This document shows positions 1,744 to 12,661 of a stretch of 64,000 nt of DNA, piece after piece (position 1 is the first letter of the stretch; each line of letters begins with the position of its first letter). The position numbers and the translations under genes are program-made. The notes under the pieces are model-generated. The model worked only from the letters and a program-made list of their open reading frames with translations, was not told the DNA's origin and searched no databases. This DNA is from Butyrivibrio sp. AE2015. Lineage in GTDB: Bacteria; Bacillota; Clostridia; Lachnospirales; Lachnospiraceae. Location: the NCBI RefSeq assembly GCF_000420825.1, contig NZ_ATVR01000001.1, forward strand, positions 186,001 through 250,000, in the 5' to 3' direction.

Positions 1744-3672
1744 ATGACATATGATAATTTGTTTCACATGGCATTCTATTGTGCAGCAATTTTAGTGACC
1801 TTGACCTCAATTGTTTATACCAAAATACAGAAAAGAACTGATCTCAAGCAAAATAGGCTCTTTCTTTTGATGAACAATTTGGTTATCATCAACGCTTTTA
1901 CGTGTTTGTGCAGTGAGATTTTTGAGTCTTATCAGAATTCATTTTATTTGTTTTACGAGCTTCTGCTAGTATTTCAATTCTTATATTTTTTGATTCATAC
2001 GGCGCTGGCACCGGCGTTGTTCAATTATGTTATGGTGGTTACGGGGAGTCGTTCTGAAATCCCTGTAATCGCCAAAATTCTAAGTGTTATCCTCTTTGGG
2101 GTAAGTGGTTTTTTTGTCATCACAAATCCAATATTTCATTATGTATATTATTATGAAAATATGCGCTTTTACAGGAACTGGGCTGAAGGAATCCTGTATA
2201 TAATCGCGTTGGCCTTTATGATAGTAGCGTTTGTTAATCTGATGCTGTCGTGGAAAGCTTTGAGAAGACGCAGCAGATATGCGCTTGTTTATTTCTTTGG
2301 AATAACGCTTCTGGGCATTTCTGTTCAGTATTTTTATATAGGGATAAAGAGTGAGCTCTTCTGTGAAGCCCTGGCATTAATGGGAGTAATGCTGAGTGTT
2401 GAAAATGAAGATGACCGAATTGATGCAGAGACAGGAGTATACAACCGAAATGCCTTGAAAATGGATGTTGCTCGTGCACTTGCCACAAAGAAATGTCTTG
2501 ACATTATATGCATGAAAATAAGCAACATTGATGCCATAAGCAGGCTTACTGGAGTATCTAACTCAGAAGACATTATTTGTGAAGTGAGCTCATTCTTAAA
2601 GACAGTGGTTTCAAGGCAGTGTATTTATCATGTAAATTCCAATACTATTATCATGATATTTAGGTATGACAGTAATAAGAAGGCTGAAAAGGATATATTA
2701 AGAATCGCTGAAAAAATTAATGAGAGATTTGAAAATGACTGGCTTGTGGGAGGAATGGCAATAAAACTTGAGCCAGTCATTATGCTGTCCTCAGTGCCAA
2801 GTGGTATCCGTTCTTTAGATGAAGTTCTTTACATGGCAGAGTGCCCGATTCCTAAGGATATGGATGGAACCGTACTAAAAGATGAGGCGCTTGGCTTTTT
2901 GATCAGGAGATCAGGTGTTGAGAAAGCTATCTCAAAAGGACTTTCAGAGGGCGCATTTGAAGTATATTATCAACCGACATACAGTATGGATGGACTTAAG
3001 CTCCATGGAGCGGAAGCACTAATAAGACTTCATGATAAGGAATTGGGAGATATCTATCCTGATGAATTTATTCCGATAGCGGAGCAGACAGGATATATCG
3101 ATGAAATAGACGATTTTGTTCTGAGACAGGTGTGTGCATTTATTAAAAGCGGAGAACCCATGAAAATGGGCATGGACTGTATAAATGTTAATCTTTCGGT
3201 TCTCCAGTGCATGAGTGATGGATTTGTTCAAAAGATATTAAATATTGTTAATAGGTATGACATTCCAAGGTCATTTATCAATTTTGAAATAACAGAGTCT
3301 GTATCAGCCAATGATTATGAGCTTTTGAGTGATGTCATAAAAAAACTGAAAGAAAACGGGTTTCAGTTCTCCATGGACGACTATGGAACAGGTTATTCCA
3401 ACATGCACTCACTATTTACACTTGATTTTGATATCGTGAAGATAGATAAGAGTATTCTTTGGGATTCGGAGCTTAGTGAAAGGGGCCAGATTATTCTTGA
3501 AAGCTGTGTGCATATGCTGAAGCAGATGAAAAGAAAGATACTGGTTGAGGGAGTTGAGACAAAAGCACATATTGAGAAATTAAAACAGCTTGGAGTTGAC
3601 TATCTTCAAGGTTATTATTTTTCCAAGCCAATAACTAAAAATGAATTACTGGCATATTGTAAGGCGAGATAA
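1744..3672 (+). CDS. Membrane c-di-GMP phosphodiesterase (7TM-like, degenerate GGDEF, EAL)
   Basis: Predicted to hydrolyse cyclic di-GMP at the inner face of the membrane. Residues about 1-215 hold roughly seven hydrophobic segments, a likely sensor. Residues 230-385 are a GGDEF-like fold that begins with TGVYNRNAL but has no GGDEF signature (the site reads IFRYDSN), so it should not make c-di-GMP. Residues 395-640 form an EAL domain with its key residues present: GAEALIRL, INVNLS, NFEITES, MDDYGTGYSN, VKIDKS, VEGVET and LQGYYFSKP. GAGGG lies just before ATG 1744. It heads a three-gene operon with gaps of only 12 and 14 bases, which suggests that c-di-GMP turnover is linked to the two less known proteins downstream. 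Confidence 0.9.
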   Translation: MTYDNLFHMAFYCAAILVTLTSIVYTKIQKRTDLKQNRLFLLMNNLVIINAFTCLCSEIFESYQNSFYLFYELLLVFQFLYFLIHTALAPALFNYVMVVTGSRSEIPVIAKILSVILFGVSGFFVITNPIFHYVYYYENMRFYRNWAEGILYIIALAFMIVAFVNLMLSWKALRRRSRYALVYFFGITLLGISVQYFYIGIKSELFCEALALMGVMLSVENEDDRIDAETGVYNRNALKMDVARALATKKCLDIICMKISNIDAISRLTGVSNSEDIICEVSSFLKTVVSRQCIYHVNSNTIIMIFRYDSNKKAEKDILRIAEKINERFENDWLVGGMAIKLEPVIMLSSVPSGIRSLDEVLYMAECPIPKDMDGTVLKDEALGFLIRRSGVEKAISKGLSEGAFEVYYQPTYSMDGLKLHGAEALIRLHDKELGDIYPDEFIPIAEQTGYIDEIDDFVLRQVCAFIKSGEPMKMGMDCINVNLSVLQCMSDGFVQKILNIVNRYDIPRSFINFEITESVSANDYELLSDVIKKLKENGFQFSMDDYGTGYSNMHSLFTLDFDIVKIDKSILWDSELSERGQIILESCVHMLKQMKRKILVEGVETKAHIEKLKQLGVDYLQGYYFSKPITKNELLAYCKAR

Positions 3673-3684
3673 GGGGATAAGAAT

Positions 3685-4350
3685 ATGGTTGAATTAACGA
3701 ATGATGAGAAGAGAATATTAGCAGCAATTTCTTTTTGCTCAGAAGAGATAGAGAGTGGGAATCTTTGTGACGCAGATATTAAACTGCTTGAAGAAATGAG
3801 AGAAGTGAAAAAATATCTGGGAGAAAAATATCCTTCCTACACTTTTGAAATAACAGGATGTGATCCCAAGGCGGGAACCATCCGTGATTATAATGAGTGG
3901 TATTATAAGGCCCTGGAAGTAGAAAGAGATTCAGCTTTTATTGCCACATCAAAAGAAATAGGGGATAAGTATGAAATAAAGGATGATTTTTATGGGGAAA
4001 TAATCAAGAATGAAGCATTAAAGCAGTTAAAAGAGATACTTTCCAAACAGGAAATCCCGATAATCAAGATAGAAATTAGTTTTTGGGAGTGTTTGGGGAA
4101 CGAATACAAAGAGGATATTTCTGCCAAGGAAGTTCTGAATGGAAAAATTTTGGCTGGAAATGATATAAAAATTTTTTTGGATGATACCAAAATAGTCGAT
4201 AAAAACTACCAAAAGACCATAAAGCAAGTGGAAAACGCATTAAAAAACGAAGGTATTTGTGGAGAAGTATACATTGTAGTTATCAAGGATTTTGAAGCTG
4301 ATCCGGTAAAAGACAGACTTTTTTCTGACAGTTTTTCACTGGATCACTAA
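3685..4350 (+). CDS. Unknown 221-residue cytoplasmic protein
   Basis: I do not recognise this protein. It is soluble-looking, charged and rich in Lys, Glu and Ile, with no signal peptide or membrane segment. The first 50 residues look helical, and the middle contains a motif-like run GTIRDYNEWYYKAL. The ATG follows AAGGGGA at a good distance. It lies 12 bases after the EAL gene and 14 bases before the Mbeg1-like gene, so all three are probably co-transcribed. The coding sequence is as AT-rich as its neighbours and shows no sign of decay. No function is proposed. Confidence 0.8.
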   Translation: MVELTNDEKRILAAISFCSEEIESGNLCDADIKLLEEMREVKKYLGEKYPSYTFEITGCDPKAGTIRDYNEWYYKALEVERDSAFIATSKEIGDKYEIKDDFYGEIIKNEALKQLKEILSKQEIPIIKIEISFWECLGNEYKEDISAKEVLNGKILAGNDIKIFLDDTKIVDKNYQKTIKQVENALKNEGICGEVYIVVIKDFEADPVKDRLFSDSFSLDH

Positions 4351-4364
4351 TAGGGGATTATTGT

Positions 4365-5819
4365 ATGGGCGGTGAATGTGCTAGTAATATGACTGTTGAA
4401 GAGATTGTACTTATCAACAACCTGTTGTATTGTGAAAATCTTGGTGGTCCAAGAGGTACATTTCTTTCAAAGAATCAGGAATCGAGAACCATTGGCGATT
4501 ACATCAATGGGGTTCTTAGAAATGCTGCCCAAATTGAAAACGATAAAGAATACAGCACCGGAGTTACCGGGGCAGAGTATAAGGAAATCATGTGGGCGAT
4601 AAGGCCCAACGAGCACCTTAAAAACATAGTGATAAAAGAAGTCCATTATGAAAGCGAAGCAGCTGGTGGTGGAAGAAGCGCATATCTTTTTGATCCGTCT
4701 TGTAATGAAGCTATAGTGGCATTTAAAGGAACGCAAAGTGACGCTGAGTGGATAGACAATGTTTCAGGATTGTATCAGGTTCCTACAGAGTATCAGAGTA
4801 ATGCTCTTTCCTGGTTCAGAACATTGGATTTTAGCGGATGTGACATTATTACAGTAACAGGCCACTCCAAGGGCGGTAACAAATCAAAATTCATTACTAT
4901 CATGGATGACCGTGTGGATAGCTGCTTTTCTTTTGACGGGCAGGGCTTTTCTGACGAGTTTATACAGAAGTATGCAGTAAGGATCAGACAGAATCAGCAT
5001 AAGATAACCAATATAATTGCAGAGAGCGACTTTGTAAATATTCTTCTGAATGATGTTGGAAAAAAACAGTTTTATCTTGGAACAAATTATGGAAGGCTGG
5101 GATTTGCGGAGAATCATTGCGCAAATGCAATTGTTTTTTATGACAGCATAGGAGGAATGTCAGTGTGGAAAGCTTCCGGTCAGGACAAGAAAATGTCGGA
5201 TCTGGATGAAATGTTAAATAGCTTTATCAGGTCAGTCAGGATGACCACCAGAGAAAAAGTGGCCAGGATGCTGGGAAACGTTATTGTAAATGCCAAGGGT
5301 GGCAATACGGATAATTTGATATATGCTTTTTCAGATGAAAAATACTCAGATAGTGCAGCGCAGCTTATTGCATATGTTTTCAGATATAAGGCTGAGAAAC
5401 CTGAAATAGTAGCGTCCTTAAGAGAGGTGCTCAGTCAAAATGGTTTTAACACAGAAATGCTGGGGCTGGTGGACTTCATAACCAATCACGACATTCTCAT
5501 GGAATTTATAGGAAAAAAGCCTGGTGCAGTCCTTAGTATATTAAAAATGAGACATGCACCGGAGAGTATAACAGAATTTCTAAGAAGTCATCAGGAATTG
5601 TTTGGGCTATTAGTTCTGGTGGCACAAAAAATGAGAAAGATCAATCCTCTGCGCTATAGTGGAAAGGATCTTAATGCTGAAGATGAAAGCATAGTCATAA
5701 GAGCAGAATCAGGTTTTGTTATTTCAAAGAGAAAAATCCGCCTAATTGCTGAAAGTGCGCTGATACTTATAGTAATACTTATAATAAGTTTTCTGTTTGT
5801 AATAAAGCCGCAAATTTAG
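4365..5819 (+). CDS. Mbeg1-like (DUF2974) alpha/beta hydrolase with C-terminal membrane anchor
   Basis: This resembles the Mbeg1-like or DUF2974 branch of the class 3 lipase fold. The features are AIVAFKGTQSDAEWIDN around residues 110-125, a nucleophile elbow VTGHSKGGNKS near residue 165 with Ser in GHSKG, and CFSFDGQGFSDEF about 20 residues later, which is typical of the family. The C-terminal half is helical and unassigned. The last 25 residues are a single hydrophobic segment, so the catalytic part probably sits in the cytoplasm, tethered by its tail. There is no N-terminal signal. It is the last gene of the EAL operon. Its 3' end overlaps the convergent AraC-type gene by 4 bases. The substrate is unknown. 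Confidence 0.82.
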   Translation: MGGECASNMTVEEIVLINNLLYCENLGGPRGTFLSKNQESRTIGDYINGVLRNAAQIENDKEYSTGVTGAEYKEIMWAIRPNEHLKNIVIKEVHYESEAAGGGRSAYLFDPSCNEAIVAFKGTQSDAEWIDNVSGLYQVPTEYQSNALSWFRTLDFSGCDIITVTGHSKGGNKSKFITIMDDRVDSCFSFDGQGFSDEFIQKYAVRIRQNQHKITNIIAESDFVNILLNDVGKKQFYLGTNYGRLGFAENHCANAIVFYDSIGGMSVWKASGQDKKMSDLDEMLNSFIRSVRMTTREKVARMLGNVIVNAKGGNTDNLIYAFSDEKYSDSAAQLIAYVFRYKAEKPEIVASLREVLSQNGFNTEMLGLVDFITNHDILMEFIGKKPGAVLSILKMRHAPESITEFLRSHQELFGLLVLVAQKMRKINPLRYSGKDLNAEDESIVIRAESGFVISKRKIRLIAESALILIVILIISFLFVIKPQI

Positions 5820-6730
5820 TTCGGATCAGTTGAGGCCATATAGCGCTCCTTTATAAACTGCTCAACCTGCCTTAAGTGTTCTTTGCTTCCGGCCTTGGTA
5901 TCACTTTTGGGAAGAGATTTACGGTATTGTGATGGCGAAAGCTTTTTTTCCTGCCTGAATGCCTTAGAGAAGACCAAAGGATCGGAGTAGCCGCAGGAAA
6001 TTGCAATTGACTCAATGGATAAGGATGTCAGTTGAAGGAGTTCTGTAGCCTTTGCAATACGATAGCTTGAAAGATACTGCTGTGGCGATATCCCAAGACG
6101 ATTTTGAAAAAGTGTATACAGATAACTTCGATTGATACAGACATAGTCCGCTATGTCTGTTACTTTTATGGGATTGCAGTAATTACTTCTTACGAAGGCC
6201 TGAGCTTTTGTGACATAGTCATTGTCTGTTCCGGAATCGCTTTTGGGCGTGACGCTTAAACCTGAAGCGAGTACAGACAGGAACATTGCTAAAAGACCTG
6301 TTCGACGTAAATCGTCTTCAACACTGAAAGTGTTGTGGTCCATCATATCTTTTATAAGATTGTAAATTGTTTCGGATTTATCGCTTTTAAATATTGGCTG
6401 CTGTACTGATAAGCCGAGCTGCGAAACAATTGATTCAGCTTTTTTTCCACCGAAACCTATCCATGTATATGTCCAGGGGTCTTCCTCATCAGCCACATAA
6501 TAAGCCAGTTCATCGGGTACGATCAAAAATCCGTAATTTTCTTCCAGGGGATAGTTTTTTCCGCCAATAGAAAAAGAGCCTTTGCCGCTCATGATGTAGT
6601 GGATCATAAAATGAGGTTTGAGCGCTGGGCCAAAGCTATGGTGAGCCTCAGTTTTGGACATTCCGCAGCAATATACATATAGGTCATCTGATTCTTCAGT
6701 ATTAAAAAGAAGTTTATATGCTTTTTCCAT
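5816..6730 (-). CDS. AraC-family transcriptional regulator
   Basis: A 304-residue regulator with an N-terminal cupin-like ligand domain (residues about 15-150, including MIHYIMSGKGSFSIGG) and a C-terminal pair of helix-turn-helix motifs (about 185-285). The AraC signature is clear: YVCINRSYLYTLFQNRLG and then ISCGYSDPLVFSKAFRQ. Proteins of this layout usually sense sugars or oligosaccharides and control nearby uptake or glycosidase genes, but no such genes are adjacent here. It faces away from the xpaC-telA pair across a 139-base gap. AAAGGA precedes the ATG, and a TATAAT-like box lies at 6756-6761 on the minus strand. Confidence 0.92.
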   Translation of the reverse strand: MEKAYKLLFNTEESDDLYVYCCGMSKTEAHHSFGPALKPHFMIHYIMSGKGSFSIGGKNYPLEENYGFLIVPDELAYYVADEEDPWTYTWIGFGGKKAESIVSQLGLSVQQPIFKSDKSETIYNLIKDMMDHNTFSVEDDLRRTGLLAMFLSVLASGLSVTPKSDSGTDNDYVTKAQAFVRSNYCNPIKVTDIADYVCINRSYLYTLFQNRLGISPQQYLSSYRIAKATELLQLTSLSIESIAISCGYSDPLVFSKAFRQEKKLSPSQYRKSLPKSDTKAGSKEHLRQVEQFIKERYMASTDPN

Positions 6731-6797
6731 TTGTCTATCCTTTCTGTTAATCGGTATTATAGCATAAATAAATGCGTATAATTTGCGTTTTCATAAG

Positions 6798-6826
6798 TTG
6801 AATGTCTATTTCTTTTACTGTAAAAT
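6798..6826 (+). promoter_or_regulatory. Putative sigma-A promoter of xpaC-telA
   Basis: TTGAAT (6798-6803) and TAAAAT (6821-6826) are 17 bases apart, in the gap between the divergent AraC and XpaC genes. The predicted start is near 6833, leaving a leader of about 37 bases before the GGAGG site and GTG start at 6870. Confidence 0.5.
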
Positions 6827-6869
6827 ATACTTGCATTTGCGATTTATCTGTATGCAGTGGAGGCTAGTT

Positions 6870-8039
6870 GTGGATAATAATACTCAGGAAGTAATAAGAG
6901 CCAGCGGTGAGATTTTAAAAAGTGTGACCGCGGCCATAGATAAAAACGATTATAGCAGGCTTGCCAGTGATATTACAAACACCATAAAGTCAGTAAGCTT
7001 TGAAACAAAAACAACATACACAAGCGGAAACAGATCTTATCAGAATCAGAGCTATACAAGGACAGCTCAACCCCAAAAGTATCCGTTTTTCGCCAAAAAA
7101 GTCAGTAAATATAATGGTCTTTTAGATATTATAATTGGGGGTTCAATATTTGCGTGCATACTTCCGCTTGCTATTGTAGGTGGGGTTTTGGGAGGTATGG
7201 CATATGGAATTCCGGCTGCAGGTCTTTTGGCAGTGAATGCGATAGTTGTTTTGGCCGGAATAAGTAAACTTAAATTTGCCAAGCTTTTTCATCAGTATGG
7301 CAATATTGTGGGTAGCAACGAATATTTCAAGATCTCAGATCTTGCCAAGGCTGCTCTCAAGTCAGATTCTGAAGTGTTAAAAGATATTAAGAAGATGATA
7401 AAAAAAGGTTATCTGCCAAGAGCAAGGCTTGATGCTACAGAAACAACCTGTATGATAACAGATGAAGCTTATCAGCTTTACCTTGGTGCTGAGAAAGACA
7501 GACTTGAGAGAGAAAAAAGAGAGCTTGATCAGCAGAAGGCGGCAATAAACTTGGACAGCCGATCCAGAGAAAACCTTACAGGAGTAGAAGCAATCCTTGC
7601 TGACGGTGAGGAATACATTCAGTACGTTAGAGCTACTAATGATATCATTCCTGATACGGAAGATATGTCTAATAAGCTTTACAGACTTGAGAGCATCATG
7701 AACAGGATCTTTGGGCAGGTGAAAAAGAACCCTCAGAGCGCTGATGATCTTCACAAGCTTATGAACTATTATCTTCCAACTACCAAAAAACTTTTGGAAG
7801 CATATGTGGAATTGGATAGACAGACGGTTCAGGGAGAGAACGTTCAGCAGACCAAAAATGAGATAGATTCCGCAATGGATACGATAAATGAAGCTTTTGA
7901 GAAGCTTTTAGACAGTCTGTTCCAGGATATGGCATGGGATATTTCTTCAGATATTTCTGTTATGAAGACCATGATGGCGCAGGATGGACTTACAAGTGAA
8001 GGCGGCATGGCGATGCAGACTATGCCAAGGTCAGAGTGA
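6870..8039 (+). CDS. XpaC-like membrane protein, partner of TelA
   Basis: This matches the XpaC family (named after 5-bromo-4-chloroindolyl phosphate hydrolysis), found beside TelA-type tellurite-resistance genes. I chose GTG 6870 because GGAGG (6859-6863) lies 6 bases upstream; an in-frame TTG at 6783 has no such site and gives an odd Phe/Tyr-rich leader. The protein is then 389 residues. A soluble N-terminus is followed by two hydrophobic segments containing GGSIFACILPLAIVGGVLGG, a small helical module YFKISDLAKAALKSDSEVLK with the basic sequence KKGYLPRARLD, and a long charged helical region. telA follows after 66 bases. The function in this clade is not known; stress or toxic-anion resistance is inferred from the pairing. 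Confidence 0.82.
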   Translation: MDNNTQEVIRASGEILKSVTAAIDKNDYSRLASDITNTIKSVSFETKTTYTSGNRSYQNQSYTRTAQPQKYPFFAKKVSKYNGLLDIIIGGSIFACILPLAIVGGVLGGMAYGIPAAGLLAVNAIVVLAGISKLKFAKLFHQYGNIVGSNEYFKISDLAKAALKSDSEVLKDIKKMIKKGYLPRARLDATETTCMITDEAYQLYLGAEKDRLEREKRELDQQKAAINLDSRSRENLTGVEAILADGEEYIQYVRATNDIIPDTEDMSNKLYRLESIMNRIFGQVKKNPQSADDLHKLMNYYLPTTKKLLEAYVELDRQTVQGENVQQTKNEIDSAMDTINEAFEKLLDSLFQDMAWDISSDISVMKTMMAQDGLTSEGGMAMQTMPRSE

Positions 8040-8105
8040 TTAAAATTGTGATATGAACAGCGAATCAGCTGTTAATTGTATTGTATGAGGATTTAGGAGG
8101 AAAAA

Positions 8106-9266
8106 ATGGGAGTAGATTTAGAATTTGATGCAGCACCAGCTGCACCATCACTGACATTTGGGGCAGAGGAGCAGGCTCAGACAGCTACAGCTAAGGCACC
8201 TGAAGAGGAGAAAAAAGACAACGGAAATATTGCGATGGAAGCTCAGCTTTCAGCTGAAGAGCTTAAGCAGGTAGATGAGTTCAGCAAGCAGATTGATATT
8301 TCTAATTCAACAGGCATCATGAACTATGGTGTTGGCACACAGAAAAAGCTTGCAGATTTTTCAGAGAAAGCAATTGATAATGTCAAGACCAAGGACATGG
8401 GCGAAGTTGGTGATATGATCACTGACCTTGTTACACAGCTTAAGAACTTCGATGTTGAAGAGGAAGAAAAAGGCTTAAAGGCATTATTCAAAAAGAGTGC
8501 CAACAAGATTGAGTCATTAAAGGCCAAATACAGCAAGGTTGAGACAAATGTCCAGACAATCAGTAACGAACTTGAGAAGCATCAGGTAACACTTATGAAG
8601 GACGTTGAGCTTTTGGATAGAATGTATGATCTTAACCTCAATTATTTCAAAGAGCTTACAATGTACATCCTTGCAGGTAAAAAGAGACTTGAAGAAGAGA
8701 GAAACACTACTCTTGTAGAGCTTCAGAAAAAGGCTGCAGAATCAGGTCTTCCTGAGGACGCTGAGAAGGCAAAAGACTTTGCTAACAAGTGCGACAGATT
8801 TGAGAAAAAGATCTATGATCTGGAACTTACAAGAACAATTGCAATGCAGACAGGTCCACAGATCCGCATGGTCCAGAGTTCTGACACAGTAATGGCTGAA
8901 AAGATCCAGTCAACAATCGTAAATACAATTCCGCTTTGGAAGAACCAGATGGTAATCGCCATTGGTATTGAGCATGCAACTCAGGCTGCTCAGGCAGAGC
9001 GCGAAGTTAACGATATGACCAATAAGCTCCTTAGAAAGAATGCAGATGCACTTAAGACAGCTACTATTGAGAGTGCAAAAGAAGCAGAGAGAGGAATTGT
9101 TGATATTGAAACTCTTAAGCATACAAATGAGTCTCTTATCTCAACTCTCGATGAAGTGTTAAAGATTCAGACAGAAGGCAAGACAAAGCGTCGAGAAGCC
9201 GAGGCAGAGCTTGCTCAGATTGAGAATCAGCTTAAAGATAAGCTTTTGGAAGCTGCAAAGAACTAA
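8106..9266 (+). CDS. telA: TelA/KlaA-family toxic anion resistance protein
   Basis: A 386-residue cytoplasmic, almost entirely helical protein of the TelA family, linked in other bacteria to tellurite and other stress resistance; its biochemical role is poorly known. Family features are VDEFSKQIDISNSTGIMNYG near residue 58, the central LDRMYDLNLNYFKELTMYI block, and TGPQIRMVQSSDTVMAEKI followed by IPLWKNQMVIAIG. A long coiled coil ends the protein. A strong AGGAGG lies just before ATG 8106. It follows xpaC and is closed by a hairpin terminator at 9287. Confidence 0.93.
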   Translation: MGVDLEFDAAPAAPSLTFGAEEQAQTATAKAPEEEKKDNGNIAMEAQLSAEELKQVDEFSKQIDISNSTGIMNYGVGTQKKLADFSEKAIDNVKTKDMGEVGDMITDLVTQLKNFDVEEEEKGLKALFKKSANKIESLKAKYSKVETNVQTISNELEKHQVTLMKDVELLDRMYDLNLNYFKELTMYILAGKKRLEEERNTTLVELQKKAAESGLPEDAEKAKDFANKCDRFEKKIYDLELTRTIAMQTGPQIRMVQSSDTVMAEKIQSTIVNTIPLWKNQMVIAIGIEHATQAAQAEREVNDMTNKLLRKNADALKTATIESAKEAERGIVDIETLKHTNESLISTLDEVLKIQTEGKTKRREAEAELAQIENQLKDKLLEAAKN

Positions 9267-9346: not shown

Positions 9347-11197
9347 ATGAGAGACGACATAAAGTTCCATGCATTTATGAAGATGACCAGAGAAGCGGCA
9401 AACGTATCTCTTGAGGAGACTGGAAAAGGGCTTTATACAAAGAGTATGATGGCGCAGATTGAAAAAGGAACAACTCTTCCTGACTATATGATGCGTAACC
9501 GTATCATGTCCAGACTGGGTATTTCATCAGAAGGCTATGAGGACTTTTTGCAGCCTGATGAATACAAAAGATATCAAAAGAGAATGGAGCTTATTAAGCT
9601 CATAGAGTCCAAAAAATTTGCTGAAGCAGAAGAGCAGATTGATCAGGTGATTTTCGATGAAGATCTAAACCTGAATAAATTAGAGCTTCAGTTTTATTAT
9701 GACATGAAGGCAAGATGCCTACACTTTAGGAAGGCGCCGTGGTGCGAAGTCCTTAAGATGTATAAAAAAGCTTGCTCTCTTACTATGATATTGGAAGAAG
9801 TAAAAGAAAAGAAATTTGGAGTATGGGCGATTTTAGAATACTTTTTGCTGTTTAAATTTTTTGAGTCCGGAGCAGAATGCTCAGATTCAACTGAAGAAAT
9901 CTCTATGCTTGCAGAAATATGTATGTCAGTACTCGATCACCTCGAAAAATCCTCAATGGATGCTATGGGAAAGTCAAAGGTTTATACTGCCGGTGTTGTT
10001 GCACTTGGAAGAATTGCAGCGGTAGATAACTACAATGTGGTTGATAAAGATTCTTTGATGAAATTATACGACAGGGCGTTAGAATACTTAAAAGAGAAGA
10101 GCCGAAGCTATTACATATTTGAGATTCTTGAAGATAAGCTAAGAATATCGAAAGAAAAAGGCCTTGAAGAAGTTTATGATGATTCGAAAAGGCTTTTGGA
10201 GCTGTTTTCAAATATTTATAGCCAGAATGATGTCGAAGGTCATATGGATTATAACTGCTACATCTATAGGGATTCAGATATATACTGTATAGGCGATGTA
10301 ATAAAATCCAGAAGACAGATGCTTCAGATAAGCAGGGAAGAACTAGCTGACAGAGTAAAATGCTCTTACAGGACACTAATGCGTATTGAAAATGGAGCAA
10401 TTTCGGCGCAGAAGGCTGTGTTGAGGCCTATTATGGAAGAACTTAATCTCAACTGCGATTACACGAGGTCAGATATTATCACAACTGATAAAGAAGTGCT
10501 GAACAAGTATCATTTGCTGATCAACACCATCAATAACGCGATAAATAGTGATTTTAGAAAAACATATGATGAATTAAACAACATGATAGATTTTTCTTAT
10601 GCTACAAATGTCCAAGTTTGGGACAGTGTAAAATACGACTTGCTTATGGTTGAGGGTAAGATTAATACAGAACAGTATGTAGAGAAAATGAAAAAAGATC
10701 TGGAACTGACTCTGTCTATTCCAATTTCCGAAATCGAAGCTGGATATTTTCTTCATGCGGAGCTGATGCTGTTAAAGGGCATAGTAGAGTACACTATGGA
10801 TGAAAATGAAAACAGTCATTTGATGAAGCTTTTGGATAATTATTGCAATGAACATGAATCCGAAGGATACCCTGCAAATTATGGATTTTATGAGGCTATA
10901 ATGATATGGATTGCAGATGTATACAGTGATGAAAATAATATTGAAAAGGTTGAAGAAATAGCGAAAAAATTACTTCTGTTAGAATTGAAGAGTCATAGAT
11001 TGTTTGAACTACATGGCGCTATGTATATGTTGCTAAGAAATGAAGCCAAAATAATAGCAGAAAGCAAGATGTATTATGAACAGAGCATTGATAAAATTAT
11101 TCGCATATGTGATTTTATCAACAACTCTGTCCATAGAGATTTCTATATTTCAATCAAACAAATGATTGATGAAGATAAAGATTGGAAGCATTACTGA
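9347..11197 (+). CDS. Large regulator with two XRE helix-turn-helix domains and TPR-like helical repeats
   Basis: A 616-residue protein with a duplicated layout. A first XRE-like domain lies at residues about 6-60 (SMMAQIEKGTTLPDYMMRN and RLGIS), then a helical-repeat region to about 305. A second, more canonical XRE domain spans about 312-368 (SRRQMLQISREELADRVKC then TLMRIENGAISAQ), followed by a second helical-repeat region to the end. HTH plus TPR-like repeats is the plan of peptide-binding regulators of the RRNPP group (Rgg, PlcR), which are normally near 300 residues with one HTH. The gene overlaps tail to tail by 7 bases a small gene for an apparently exported peptide. Both HTH units look intact. 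That it senses the peptide is inference. Confidence 0.85.
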   Translation: MRDDIKFHAFMKMTREAANVSLEETGKGLYTKSMMAQIEKGTTLPDYMMRNRIMSRLGISSEGYEDFLQPDEYKRYQKRMELIKLIESKKFAEAEEQIDQVIFDEDLNLNKLELQFYYDMKARCLHFRKAPWCEVLKMYKKACSLTMILEEVKEKKFGVWAILEYFLLFKFFESGAECSDSTEEISMLAEICMSVLDHLEKSSMDAMGKSKVYTAGVVALGRIAAVDNYNVVDKDSLMKLYDRALEYLKEKSRSYYIFEILEDKLRISKEKGLEEVYDDSKRLLELFSNIYSQNDVEGHMDYNCYIYRDSDIYCIGDVIKSRRQMLQISREELADRVKCSYRTLMRIENGAISAQKAVLRPIMEELNLNCDYTRSDIITTDKEVLNKYHLLINTINNAINSDFRKTYDELNNMIDFSYATNVQVWDSVKYDLLMVEGKINTEQYVEKMKKDLELTLSIPISEIEAGYFLHAELMLLKGIVEYTMDENENSHLMKLLDNYCNEHESEGYPANYGFYEAIMIWIADVYSDENNIEKVEEIAKKLLLLELKSHRLFELHGAMYMLLRNEAKIIAESKMYYEQSIDKIIRICDFINNSVHRDFYISIKQMIDEDKDWKHY

Positions 11198-11412
11198 TTA
11201 ACATTTACGCGATGAGTAGGAAAGTGTGACTGAAGAGTAACGATATTTTCCTCAGATACAGATGTTTCACCAACTAAATCACTTACAGAAACAGTTGTTG
11301 TCTCAGTGTTTGTATTTGTATTGTATGAAACAGTAATGAATGGAAATGAAATAGTAATTGTGAGATTAAAAATAACAAGTACAAGAACAAGTAAGTTACT
11401 AATTTTTTTCAT
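11191..11412 (-). CDS. Small exported peptide, possible signalling pro-peptide
   Basis: A 73-residue product. It starts MKKISN, continues with a hydrophobic stretch to about residue 30, and then has a polar Asn/Thr/Ser/Val-rich tail ending in SHFPTHRVNVNQ. This reads as a signal peptide plus a short secreted part. A strong GGGAGG lies 9 bases before the ATG, and a promoter-like pair sits at 11449-11477. The stop lies inside the 3' end of the double-HTH regulator gene. There are no cysteines and no lipobox. I recognise no family. Convergent pairing of a short exported peptide with an HTH-TPR regulator is known for Rgg/SHP systems, which is the basis for suggesting a signalling role. Confidence 0.68.
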   Translation of the reverse strand: MKKISNLLVLVLVIFNLTITISFPFITVSYNTNTNTETTTVSVSDLVGETSVSEENIVTLQSHFPTHRVNVNQ

Positions 11413-11448
11413 TTTTTGTGTCCTCCCAATAAGATTAGTTTATTTATA

Positions 11449-11477
11449 AAAATAAAATAAAAATAACATGATTTCAA
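11449..11477 (-). promoter_or_regulatory. Putative promoter of the small exported peptide gene
   Basis: On the minus strand TTGAAA (11477-11472) and TATTTT (11454-11449) are 17 bases apart. The -35 box overlaps by two bases the end of the 19-bp inverted repeat at 11476-11528, the place where an activator would be expected to bind. Confidence 0.45.
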
Positions 11478-11528
11478 GTGACAGAGTATTTTACTTTTAT
11501 GGTTTTTTTGTAAAATACTCTGTCACTT
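11476..11528. repeat. Perfect 19-bp inverted repeat, operator or terminator
   Basis: The left arm AAGTGACAGAGTATTTTAC (11476-11494) is exactly complementary to the right arm at 11510-11528, around a 15-base T-rich spacer. It lies between the divergent peptide and glycosyltransferase genes. Reading rightward it is followed by TTTCTTT, so it could end transcripts from the regulator gene; equally it abuts the -35 box of the peptide gene and could be a binding site. The stem is AT-rich and lacks the GC core usual in the other terminators here. Confidence 0.75.
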
Positions 11529-11602
11529 TTCTTTAGCACTGTAAAATTTTATTATGTTATTAACAACAGAACTTATATTTGATGAAAGGAGGCTAAATAT
11601 TT

Positions 11603-12475
11603 ATGAGTGAAAAGAATATCAGTGTGATCTTACCGGTTTATAATTCAGAAAAAACAATAGCAGAATGTATAGAAAACGCTCTACTTAGCCTTCGAGAGAA
11701 TGATGAGCTTATAATAATTGATGACGGCTCGACAGATAATACACCAGATATATGTATGGATTATGCATGGAAATGTCCCAATATAGTTTATAAGCAGCAG
11801 GATAACAGAGGTCTTTTTCTGGCAAAGCTTGAGGGTATCAGAGTTTCCAGGGGAGAGTATGTAAGCTTTATCGATGCCGATGATGTCTGCGCTGAAAAAA
11901 GATATACAGTAATGCACTCTGTGGCAGCTGCAAATGATGCTGATATTATATTTTTTGGAGCAATAATCAAAAGAGAAGGTTTTGATACAAAGGTTTATGA
12001 TTCAGAGATGTTCCCAGGAAGTTACTCAAGCAAAAAGGTAATTGATTCCTTTGGGAAAATGCTCTTTGGAAAACTTGATAGTGATGACAATTCTTATACA
12101 GGTTACCTTTGGAATACACTGATCAAGAGGGAAGCACTATGTGGCATGGAAGAATATGCCGGAGAAAAGATCCGCTATTATGATGATGAGATAATTATGC
12201 TTCATGCGCTTATGAAGGCTGATAAATGCGTTGTTTCCGAGAAAAAACTGTATCGATATGATTATTCAAGCTATAAAGCAATAAGAAAAAAGAAATCCTA
12301 TGGTCCACAAAATTGGGAAAATATAGTTACAGTCTATAATCTCAAAAAAGAGATGGCGATTGAAAATGATATTTATAACAGTGAGATAAAGTCCCGCCTT
12401 TCAACTTTTTTAGGACCAATCTCCTTTATGAGATTTATCATTGGTCAGGACTCTGCGGTGCCAAAGGCGTTTTAA
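11603..12475 (+). CDS. Family 2 glycosyltransferase (GT-A fold)
   Basis: A 290-residue cytoplasmic glycosyltransferase starting ISVILPVYNSEKTIAECIENAL. It has the nucleotide-binding IIIDDGSTDNTPDIC and the metal-binding DADD in GEYVSFIDADDVC. Such enzymes move sugars from nucleotide donors onto surface polysaccharide or lipid carriers. AGGAGG (11585-11590) precedes ATG 11603 by 12 bases. It stands alone, with no polysaccharide cluster, and shares its upstream region with the inverted repeat and the small peptide gene. That it is a target of the neighbouring regulator is inference. The tail after residue 220 is short and has no membrane segment. Confidence 0.88.
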   Translation: MSEKNISVILPVYNSEKTIAECIENALLSLRENDELIIIDDGSTDNTPDICMDYAWKCPNIVYKQQDNRGLFLAKLEGIRVSRGEYVSFIDADDVCAEKRYTVMHSVAAANDADIIFFGAIIKREGFDTKVYDSEMFPGSYSSKKVIDSFGKMLFGKLDSDDNSYTGYLWNTLIKREALCGMEEYAGEKIRYYDDEIIMLHALMKADKCVVSEKKLYRYDYSSYKAIRKKKSYGPQNWENIVTVYNLKKEMAIENDIYNSEIKSRLSTFLGPISFMRFIIGQDSAVPKAF

Positions 12476-12492: not shown

Positions 12493-12528
12493 AATAAGAC
12501 CCAGTCAGATGACTGAGTCTTATTTTTT
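12493..12528. terminator. Bidirectional terminator after the glycosyltransferase
   Basis: A 15-base stem AATAAGACCCAGTCA/TGACTGAGTCTTATT with one mismatch and a 2-base gap (in practice a 4-base loop) is followed by TTTTTT on the plus strand. The minus strand also ends in a T run, so it can serve both the plus-strand glycosyltransferase and minus-strand galT. Confidence 0.8.
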
Positions 12529-12563
12529 ATATCATAGGAATTGCTTCCTATGATATAAAAAAT
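12522..12563. repeat. Perfect 19-bp inverted repeat between convergent genes
   Basis: The arms at 12522-12540 and 12545-12563 are exactly complementary around TTGC; the core is TATATCATAGGAA. The T-rich left arm overlaps the tail of the previous terminator. GCTTCCT (12543-12549) could instead pair with AGGAAGC (12574-12580), so two exclusive folds are possible. Confidence 0.65.
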
Positions 12564-12583
12564 CGCTCCGCTAAGGAAGCGCA

Positions 12584-12659
12584 CTCGCGCGAATGGAAAA
12601 TGTTGCATAAATGCAACCGCGCTCGGCGCGAGAATGTCGCAAGCGACATTCTTTTTTTT
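12584..12659 (+). terminator. GC-rich stem with nested hairpin and second plus-strand terminator
   Basis: CTCGCGC (12584-12590) can pair with GCGCGAG (12626-12632) and enclose GTTGCA/TGCAAC. Next comes a strong terminator, GAATGTCGC/GCGACATTC (12632-12651) with loop AA and eight T. Together with the two upstream hairpins it fills the whole 186-base gap between the glycosyltransferase and galT. Confidence 0.65.
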
Positions 12660-12661
12660 CA

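Follow-up and report, generated by a model that had tools for sequence, protein, structure and literature searches.

In the PlcR/PapR system of the Bacillus cereus group, the gene for a receptor that joins a helix-turn-helix (HTH) domain to tetratricopeptide repeats (TPRs) adjoins the gene for an exported pro-peptide, and in the Rgg/SHP and ComR/ComS systems of streptococci an HTH-TPR receptor likewise has a peptide gene nearby, with some Rgg/SHP pairs arranged convergently. The receptors of these RRNPP-type systems are single, PlcR being one chain of 293 residues in the Protein Data Bank (PDB) entry 2qfc. Here, we describe a locus from Butyrivibrio sp. AE2015, contained in a 64,000-nt stretch of its 3.7-Mb genome (the window, to whose positions coordinates refer), in which two such units lie in one receptor chain of 616 residues (9347-11197, plus strand; residue numbers refer to this chain), and in which a convergent gene for a 73-residue pro-peptide (11191-11412, minus strand) overlaps the 3' end of the receptor gene by 7 bp (11191-11197). 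We consider it probable, from the comparative sequence evidence below, that this is a self-contained RRNPP-type peptide-signaling module with a doubled receptor.

RRNPP systems are also described in Clostridia, where Qsr and QssR belong to solventogenic species (PMC10075063; here and below, papers are cited for the available part of their text). QssR has been grouped with the nine-TPR folds of clan B (PMC12700828), whereas each half of the Butyrivibrio receptor, at about 300 residues, has the size of PlcR. The locus departs from PlcR/PapR in the overlap of its convergent peptide gene with the receptor end, in the 19-bp arms of its inverted repeat, and in the tryptophan found at the column of the anchor asparagine. 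SHP peptides are short and leave via PptAB (PMC10075063), unlike the pro-peptides of the present group, which have 44-77 aa and basic-hydrophobic, signal-like N-termini. The defaults of RRNPP_detector, a receptor of 250-500 aa and a pro-peptide of 10-100 aa at -60 to 400 bp (PMC10075063), place a 616-residue receptor beyond the upper size limit, and fused receptors would be left out by that program, judged from this default; the 73-residue pro-peptide and its 7-bp overlap fall within the corresponding limits. Similarly, a structural phylogeny from 2025 describes five TPRs, an optional N-terminal HTH and four optional further TPRs (PMC12700828), and the order HTH-TPR-HTH-TPR in one chain falls outside the architecture given in the available part of that paper. 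A double-HTH RRNPP receptor was not found in the literature among the matches listed (titles and abstract starts, without preprints), and no paper treating both RRNPP and Butyrivibrio was found in a literature search that did not cover preprints. In the available parts of the texts, the string 'Lachno' is absent from PMC10075063, PMC9765709 and PMC12700828, and 'two HTH' from PMC9765709 and PMC12700828. Because these receptors lie outside both the size range of RRNPP_detector and the architecture in the available part of PMC12700828, and were not found in the literature, we call them a new double-receptor subfamily of RRNPP-type systems.

The receptor consists of an N half (residues 1-300; 9347-10246, plus strand), with a first HTH (HTH1) followed by TPR-like helices, and a C half (residues 301-616; 10247-11194, plus strand), with a second HTH (HTH2, about residues 316-371) and its own TPR-like helices. 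An earlier note on this DNA had recognized two HTH-TPR units and had taken the protein for a fused or duplicated form of about twice the usual size, and the domain and profile searches bear this out. HTH2 passes the Pfam cut-offs (HTH_3, residues 319-371), and HTH1, which is below threshold when the N half of the window is scanned alone (HTH_31, E 0.0094), is clear in the family profile. When 47 full-length relatives were aligned and cut at residue 300 (300 and 316 aa in the window's receptor), the N-half and C-half profiles proved homologous over 287 columns (hhalign, probability 100%, E 1.4e-41), and therefore the HTH and TPR regions were duplicated together. Searched against the PDB, the C-half profile (31 rows) found PlcR (2qfc) as its best match, with E 5.5e-20 and nearly end to end, over profile positions 19-309 of 316. 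Matches of the N-half profile (31 rows) were PlcR (E 2.9e-8), PrgX (E 1.8e-4) and, over about 105 residues with E about 2e-8, the entries 5w4m and 4yv6, which carry the title 'Transcriptional regulator' and which we take to be Rgg2-type proteins. In addition, RNPP_C (PF18768) is present in 6 of the 47 fused full-length proteins at E <= 0.001 and scores above the curated cut-off for the N-half protein of one split pair (34.5 versus 26.5 bits). At the level of family profiles, both halves thus appear homologous to known HTH-TPR receptors.

Relatives of this receptor are found in 11 of 79 genomes of the genus at E <= 1e-8 (the window's own, three close orthologues with 68-71% identity in Butyrivibrio sp. 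Su6, B. proteoclasticus P18 and Butyrivibrio sp. RGIG9232, and weaker ones). They recur at the level of the Lachnospiraceae, where a sample of 397 genomes contains 29 with a match at E <= 1e-20, several of them with two to four matches; three candidates were scored per genome, and some matches cover one half alone. A class-wide sample, again with three candidates scored per genome, gave matches in 8 of 391 genomes, four from the same genus and four from outside the family, the latter being single proteins only (open frames, 314-333 aa). Viral contigs, plasmids and phages yielded no relative of the window receptor or of A1. At six loci (L095, L098, L099, L104, L109 and L124 (G024)) the N and C halves are encoded by adjacent separate genes. 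A quick tree of 114 half and single receptors, rooted at the midpoint and with several long branches, separated the N halves (47 fused and 6 split) from a second group made up of the C halves (47 fused and 6 split) and 8 singles, with a value of 98 in the Shimodaira-Hasegawa-like approximate likelihood ratio test (SH-aLRT). Given the six split pairs, and the two single-HTH relatives with the same convergent peptide, the simplest reading of these sequences is one old duplication, followed by inheritance as a pair, fused or split, with the singles being C-type.

The note had suggested testing whether a short exported open reading frame (ORF) occupies the same 3' position across homologues. To be counted, an ORF had to converge on the receptor gene, span 35-90 codons, end between -50 and +30 bp of the receptor stop, and have a ribosome site, a basic N-terminus and a hydrophobic segment. 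Such an ORF lies at 40 of 58 receptor 3' ends of the family, compared with 3 of 272 control ORFs (other long ORFs of the same loci, at least 180 codons from stop to stop); the Fisher p of 8e-34 is only a guide, because the loci are related. The association holds when the three close orthologues are dropped (37/55, Fisher p 1e-31), and 33 of 48 ends retain the ORF once the ten genus-level loci in which the pattern was first seen (7/10) are removed. Relaxed limits add two loci (L028, at +63 bp, and L068, at -70 bp), giving 42 of 58. The 58 ends include split C halves and fragments; they leave out the N-half-only ORFs L102, L108 and L110 and the second ORF of L079, which have no C-terminal part, as well as G077 (contig end), G061, G025:C22, G025:C11 and G280:C18, which were not fetched with wide flanks, and other weak genus matches. 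The pro-peptides have a median length of 56 aa, and 26 of the 42 genes overlap the receptor end. In the window, the gene that the note had described as having a strong ribosome site and a signal-like N-terminus indeed has a GGAGG site before the ORF and encodes a basic and hydrophobic start, so that export is predicted by the hydrophobicity rule. The ORF is also found within the limits at four of the six split pairs (L095, L098, L099 and L109); at L124 an ORF lies farther away (+115 bp), and at L104 no pro-peptide ORF was found. Among the single receptors, two of eight (L123 and L128, both from G001) are C-type proteins of 313-314 aa with convergent, overlapping exported ORFs of 60 aa; by sequence, the genus thus also has a form of the module with a single receptor. 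At locus L064, two full-length double receptors lie in tandem (2995-7197), with a convergent pro-peptide only at the second. Of three receptor matches listed for another genome (G120), two (L065 and L069) carry a single in-frame TAG each, which may reflect either decay or recoding; a convergent pro-peptide still lies next to each of them.

The pro-peptide has a conserved leader and a variable tail. Across the four orthologues (the window and its three close relatives), 57 of 73 columns are invariant and ten more show scattered changes, whereas columns 66-71 (11200-11217, minus strand), just ahead of the final NQ, are each variable and include a 3-nt indel. The sole variable block is thus a tail of 5-6 residues. 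This reverses the expectation in the note of a variable core followed by conserved C-terminal residues: conservation extends over leader and core, and variation is found in the tail save for the final NQ, whose conservation may be forced because it lies beside and within the overlap with the last codons of the receptor. On the receptor side, identity among the same four sequences is 95-99% in the HTH windows and drops to a mean of 53-63% in residues 401-520 of the second TPR domain (10547-10906, plus strand), the fastest-changing segment and the proposed signal-recognition surface. A variable tail and a fast second TPR domain would be expected of a signal and its receptor, but the pattern is only suggestive, because it comes from four sequences of which the window is the most diverged throughout. 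Co-divergence of receptor and peptide, considered as a separate line of evidence, is likewise suggestive only, the window being most diverged in the first TPR domain as well as in the second. Synonymous divergence (dS) between species is low in pro-peptide codons 1-65 (11218-11412), at 0.07-0.22. Most receptor segments are higher, with means of about 0.9-1.7 for those that allowed the calculation, and the difference hints at nucleotide-level constraint or recent exchange.

Upstream of the pro-peptide gene, between it and a divergent glycosyltransferase gene, the note had pointed to an inverted repeat (11476-11528), and this repeat is perfect, with 19-bp arms (11476-11494 and 11510-11528) separated by 15 nt; as a whole it occurs once in the genome. 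The operator of PlcR is palindromic, TATGNAN4TNCATA (PMC3519770), and the repeat, which we propose as an operator common to the peptide and glycosyltransferase promoters, is similar in this respect; its arms (AAGTGACAGAGTATTTTAC) do not contain the PlcR box, and with a double rather than a single receptor the locus falls outside the PlcR/PapR subfamily. A promoter-like TTGAAA-17-TATTTT for the pro-peptide (11449-11477, minus strand) touches a repeat arm with its first hexamer, and a -35-like hexamer, belonging in each case to one divergent promoter, abuts or falls within either arm. Comparable repeats recur in the family. Within 220 bp upstream of the peptide start, an inverted repeat with a score of at least 15 was found at 26 of 42 loci compared with 15 of 283 control regions (Fisher p 2.6e-17; 12 neighbours sharing the family repeat were removed from the controls), and at a score of at least 12 the numbers are 29/42 and 33/283. 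Repeats beat all 40 shuffles at 32 of the 42 loci. Half of the strong repeats (13 of 26, four of these being the window and its orthologues) sit 54-64 bp from the peptide ATG, and the outer part of the arm is CATGAC-like or GTGACAGAG-like in many of them. We also considered that arms of about 20 bp could offer four subsites to four HTHs. This idea was weakened by L128, a single-HTH receptor with a repeat of 21-bp arms near its peptide gene; because its arms are equally long, arm length is no evidence for four-headed binding.

The repeat could instead be an RNA element, a terminator or attenuator of the receptor transcript, with the regulator acting elsewhere. We judge this unlikely, although several observations agree with it: the receptor transcript would run through the repeat, the 19-bp stem in the window is followed by TTCTTTA on the receptor strand, the equally long repeat of L128 accompanies a receptor with one HTH, and a negative terminator scan covered loops of 3-8 nt, so that a 15-nt loop could not be called. 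However, a T-rich tract (at least 6 T among the first 9 bases past the stem) follows only 4 of the 26 strong repeats on the receptor strand and 5 of the 26 on the peptide strand, and two arm changes in the orthologues are uncompensated. The preferred spacing from the peptide ATG and the shared CATGAC-like arm ends also speak for an operator.

A further alternative, to which we give little credence, is that the small ORF encodes an effector that is secreted or resides in the membrane (type I toxin-like, bacteriocin-like or a cell-envelope peptide) and is controlled by the regulator or counteracted by antisense. Owing to the convergent overlap, the two mRNAs have complementary ends, the low dS of the pro-peptide could mean nucleotide-level constraint, and some relatives have Cys-containing tails. 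On the other hand, the family profiles of both receptor halves resemble RRNPP receptors, and the described partners of RRNPP receptors are pro-peptides of this kind; the variable block in the four orthologues is the tail rather than the hydrophobic part, and the ORF also accompanies split pairs and two of the singles. That the small ORF lies by chance beside the gene of the double HTH-TPR regulator, which would have other targets, as the relatives with no detectable partner and the variation of other neighbours between loci might suggest, is very improbable given the excess over control ORFs with and without the close orthologues.

The peptide-signaling pair proposed in the note is therefore supported by the retention of the ORF and by the RRNPP-like profiles of both halves, and several points weigh against it. 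The 616-residue protein alone scores no RNPP_C or TPR family in Pfam and retrieves no RRNPP entry from the PDB, so the RRNPP assignment rests on the family profiles; these also match designed TPR proteins, kinesin light chains and other HTH proteins in the PDB, as expected for such folds. Where PlcR has its anchor asparagine, presumably N201, this receptor has W521 in the alignment and 9 of 31 C halves have Asn, which argues against a simple transfer of the PlcR model. A key asparagine has been spoken of for Rap, PlcR and PrgX (PMC3601992). AlphaFold2 models built with the receptor of the window and three related sequences were discarded for their low predicted local distance difference test (pLDDT) values, 48.8 for the whole and 43.4 for the C half. 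Sixteen of the 58 receptors have no such ORF, even at relaxed limits, and six of the eight singles show none at the receptor end; export was scored by a simple hydrophobicity rule, and the limits of the ORF test were chosen after inspecting the locus listing. Additionally, the tails share no significant motif (information content 9.07, compared with 8.15-8.98 in 12 shuffles), and promoter-like matches are at chance level (3 found, 3.4 expected).

In the peptide-signaling module that we favor, the pro-peptide would be exported through its own signal sequence and cut near its C-terminus, giving a short peptide that contains the variable tail. This peptide could be re-imported via an oligopeptide permease, and the genome encodes eight importer-type SBP_bac_5 proteins. 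Once inside, it would dock in the receptor's TPR groove, most likely that of the C half. With two HTHs in one chain, the receptor may be a covalent version of a duplicated receptor pair, which would bind the long inverted repeat and switch the divergent peptide and glycosyltransferase promoters, resulting in autoinduction. That the peptide is exported, processed, imported and bound, and in which direction regulation runs, we infer by analogy with described systems.

The candidate target is a family-2 glycosyltransferase of 290 aa (11603-12475, plus strand; PF00535, E 2.5e-30), divergent from the peptide gene and in the same place in all four orthologues. The suggestion in the note that the module possibly controls surface glycosylation is unproven, and elsewhere the module adjoins other kinds of genes. 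In a Pfam scan of ten neighbours from other loci, seven had a family. A radical SAM-SPASM gene lies beside a 41-aa Cys-containing ORF at L025, a radical SAM gene (SPASM just below cut-off) beside a 43-aa Cys/Gly-rich ORF at L096, and ThiF follows a 30-aa ORF at L091, while Big_2 (L026), VWA (L107), EAL (L099) and a sub-threshold HEPN match (L066) were found at other loci. Since the neighbours differ between loci, the module resembles a switch that can be moved between contexts, with glycosylation as its output in this clade at most. A genome search for further half-sites, using the arm of this repeat alone with up to 3 mismatches, returned the 2 arms and 3 strays compared with 2 for a control pattern; the lack of further half-sites above control points to local control and lends no support to a wider regulon.

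The surroundings of the locus have features of their own. Upstream of the receptor (6783-9266) lies a gene pair for a Halogen_Hydrol (PF10112) protein and a TelA family protein, the TelA-family gene being in the same place in all four orthologues. Downstream of the glycosyltransferase, the gap to the next gene measures 187 bp in the window compared with 61-113 bp in the three orthologues and contains stacked strong hairpins (12495-12660, fold z-score -7.7), of which a genome search found no second copy apart from their own palindromes.

Lachnospiraceae are abundant rumen and gut bacteria. On a broader proposal for this family our judgment is evenly balanced: an ancient duplicated RRNPP pair may have given rise to a widespread class of covalent or tightly co-inherited hetero-pairs, in which the C half would sense the peptide and the N half, having diverged, would act as an internal dimer partner or second sensor, with one chain reading a long two-part operator and able to integrate two inputs. 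If confirmed, the module would be a natural example of how a peptide receptor of the homodimer type became a hetero-pair in one chain, and would provide a ready list of signal-receptor-operator sets located beside glycan genes, genes for secreted proteins, and genes resembling those for ribosomally synthesized and post-translationally modified peptides (RiPP-like).

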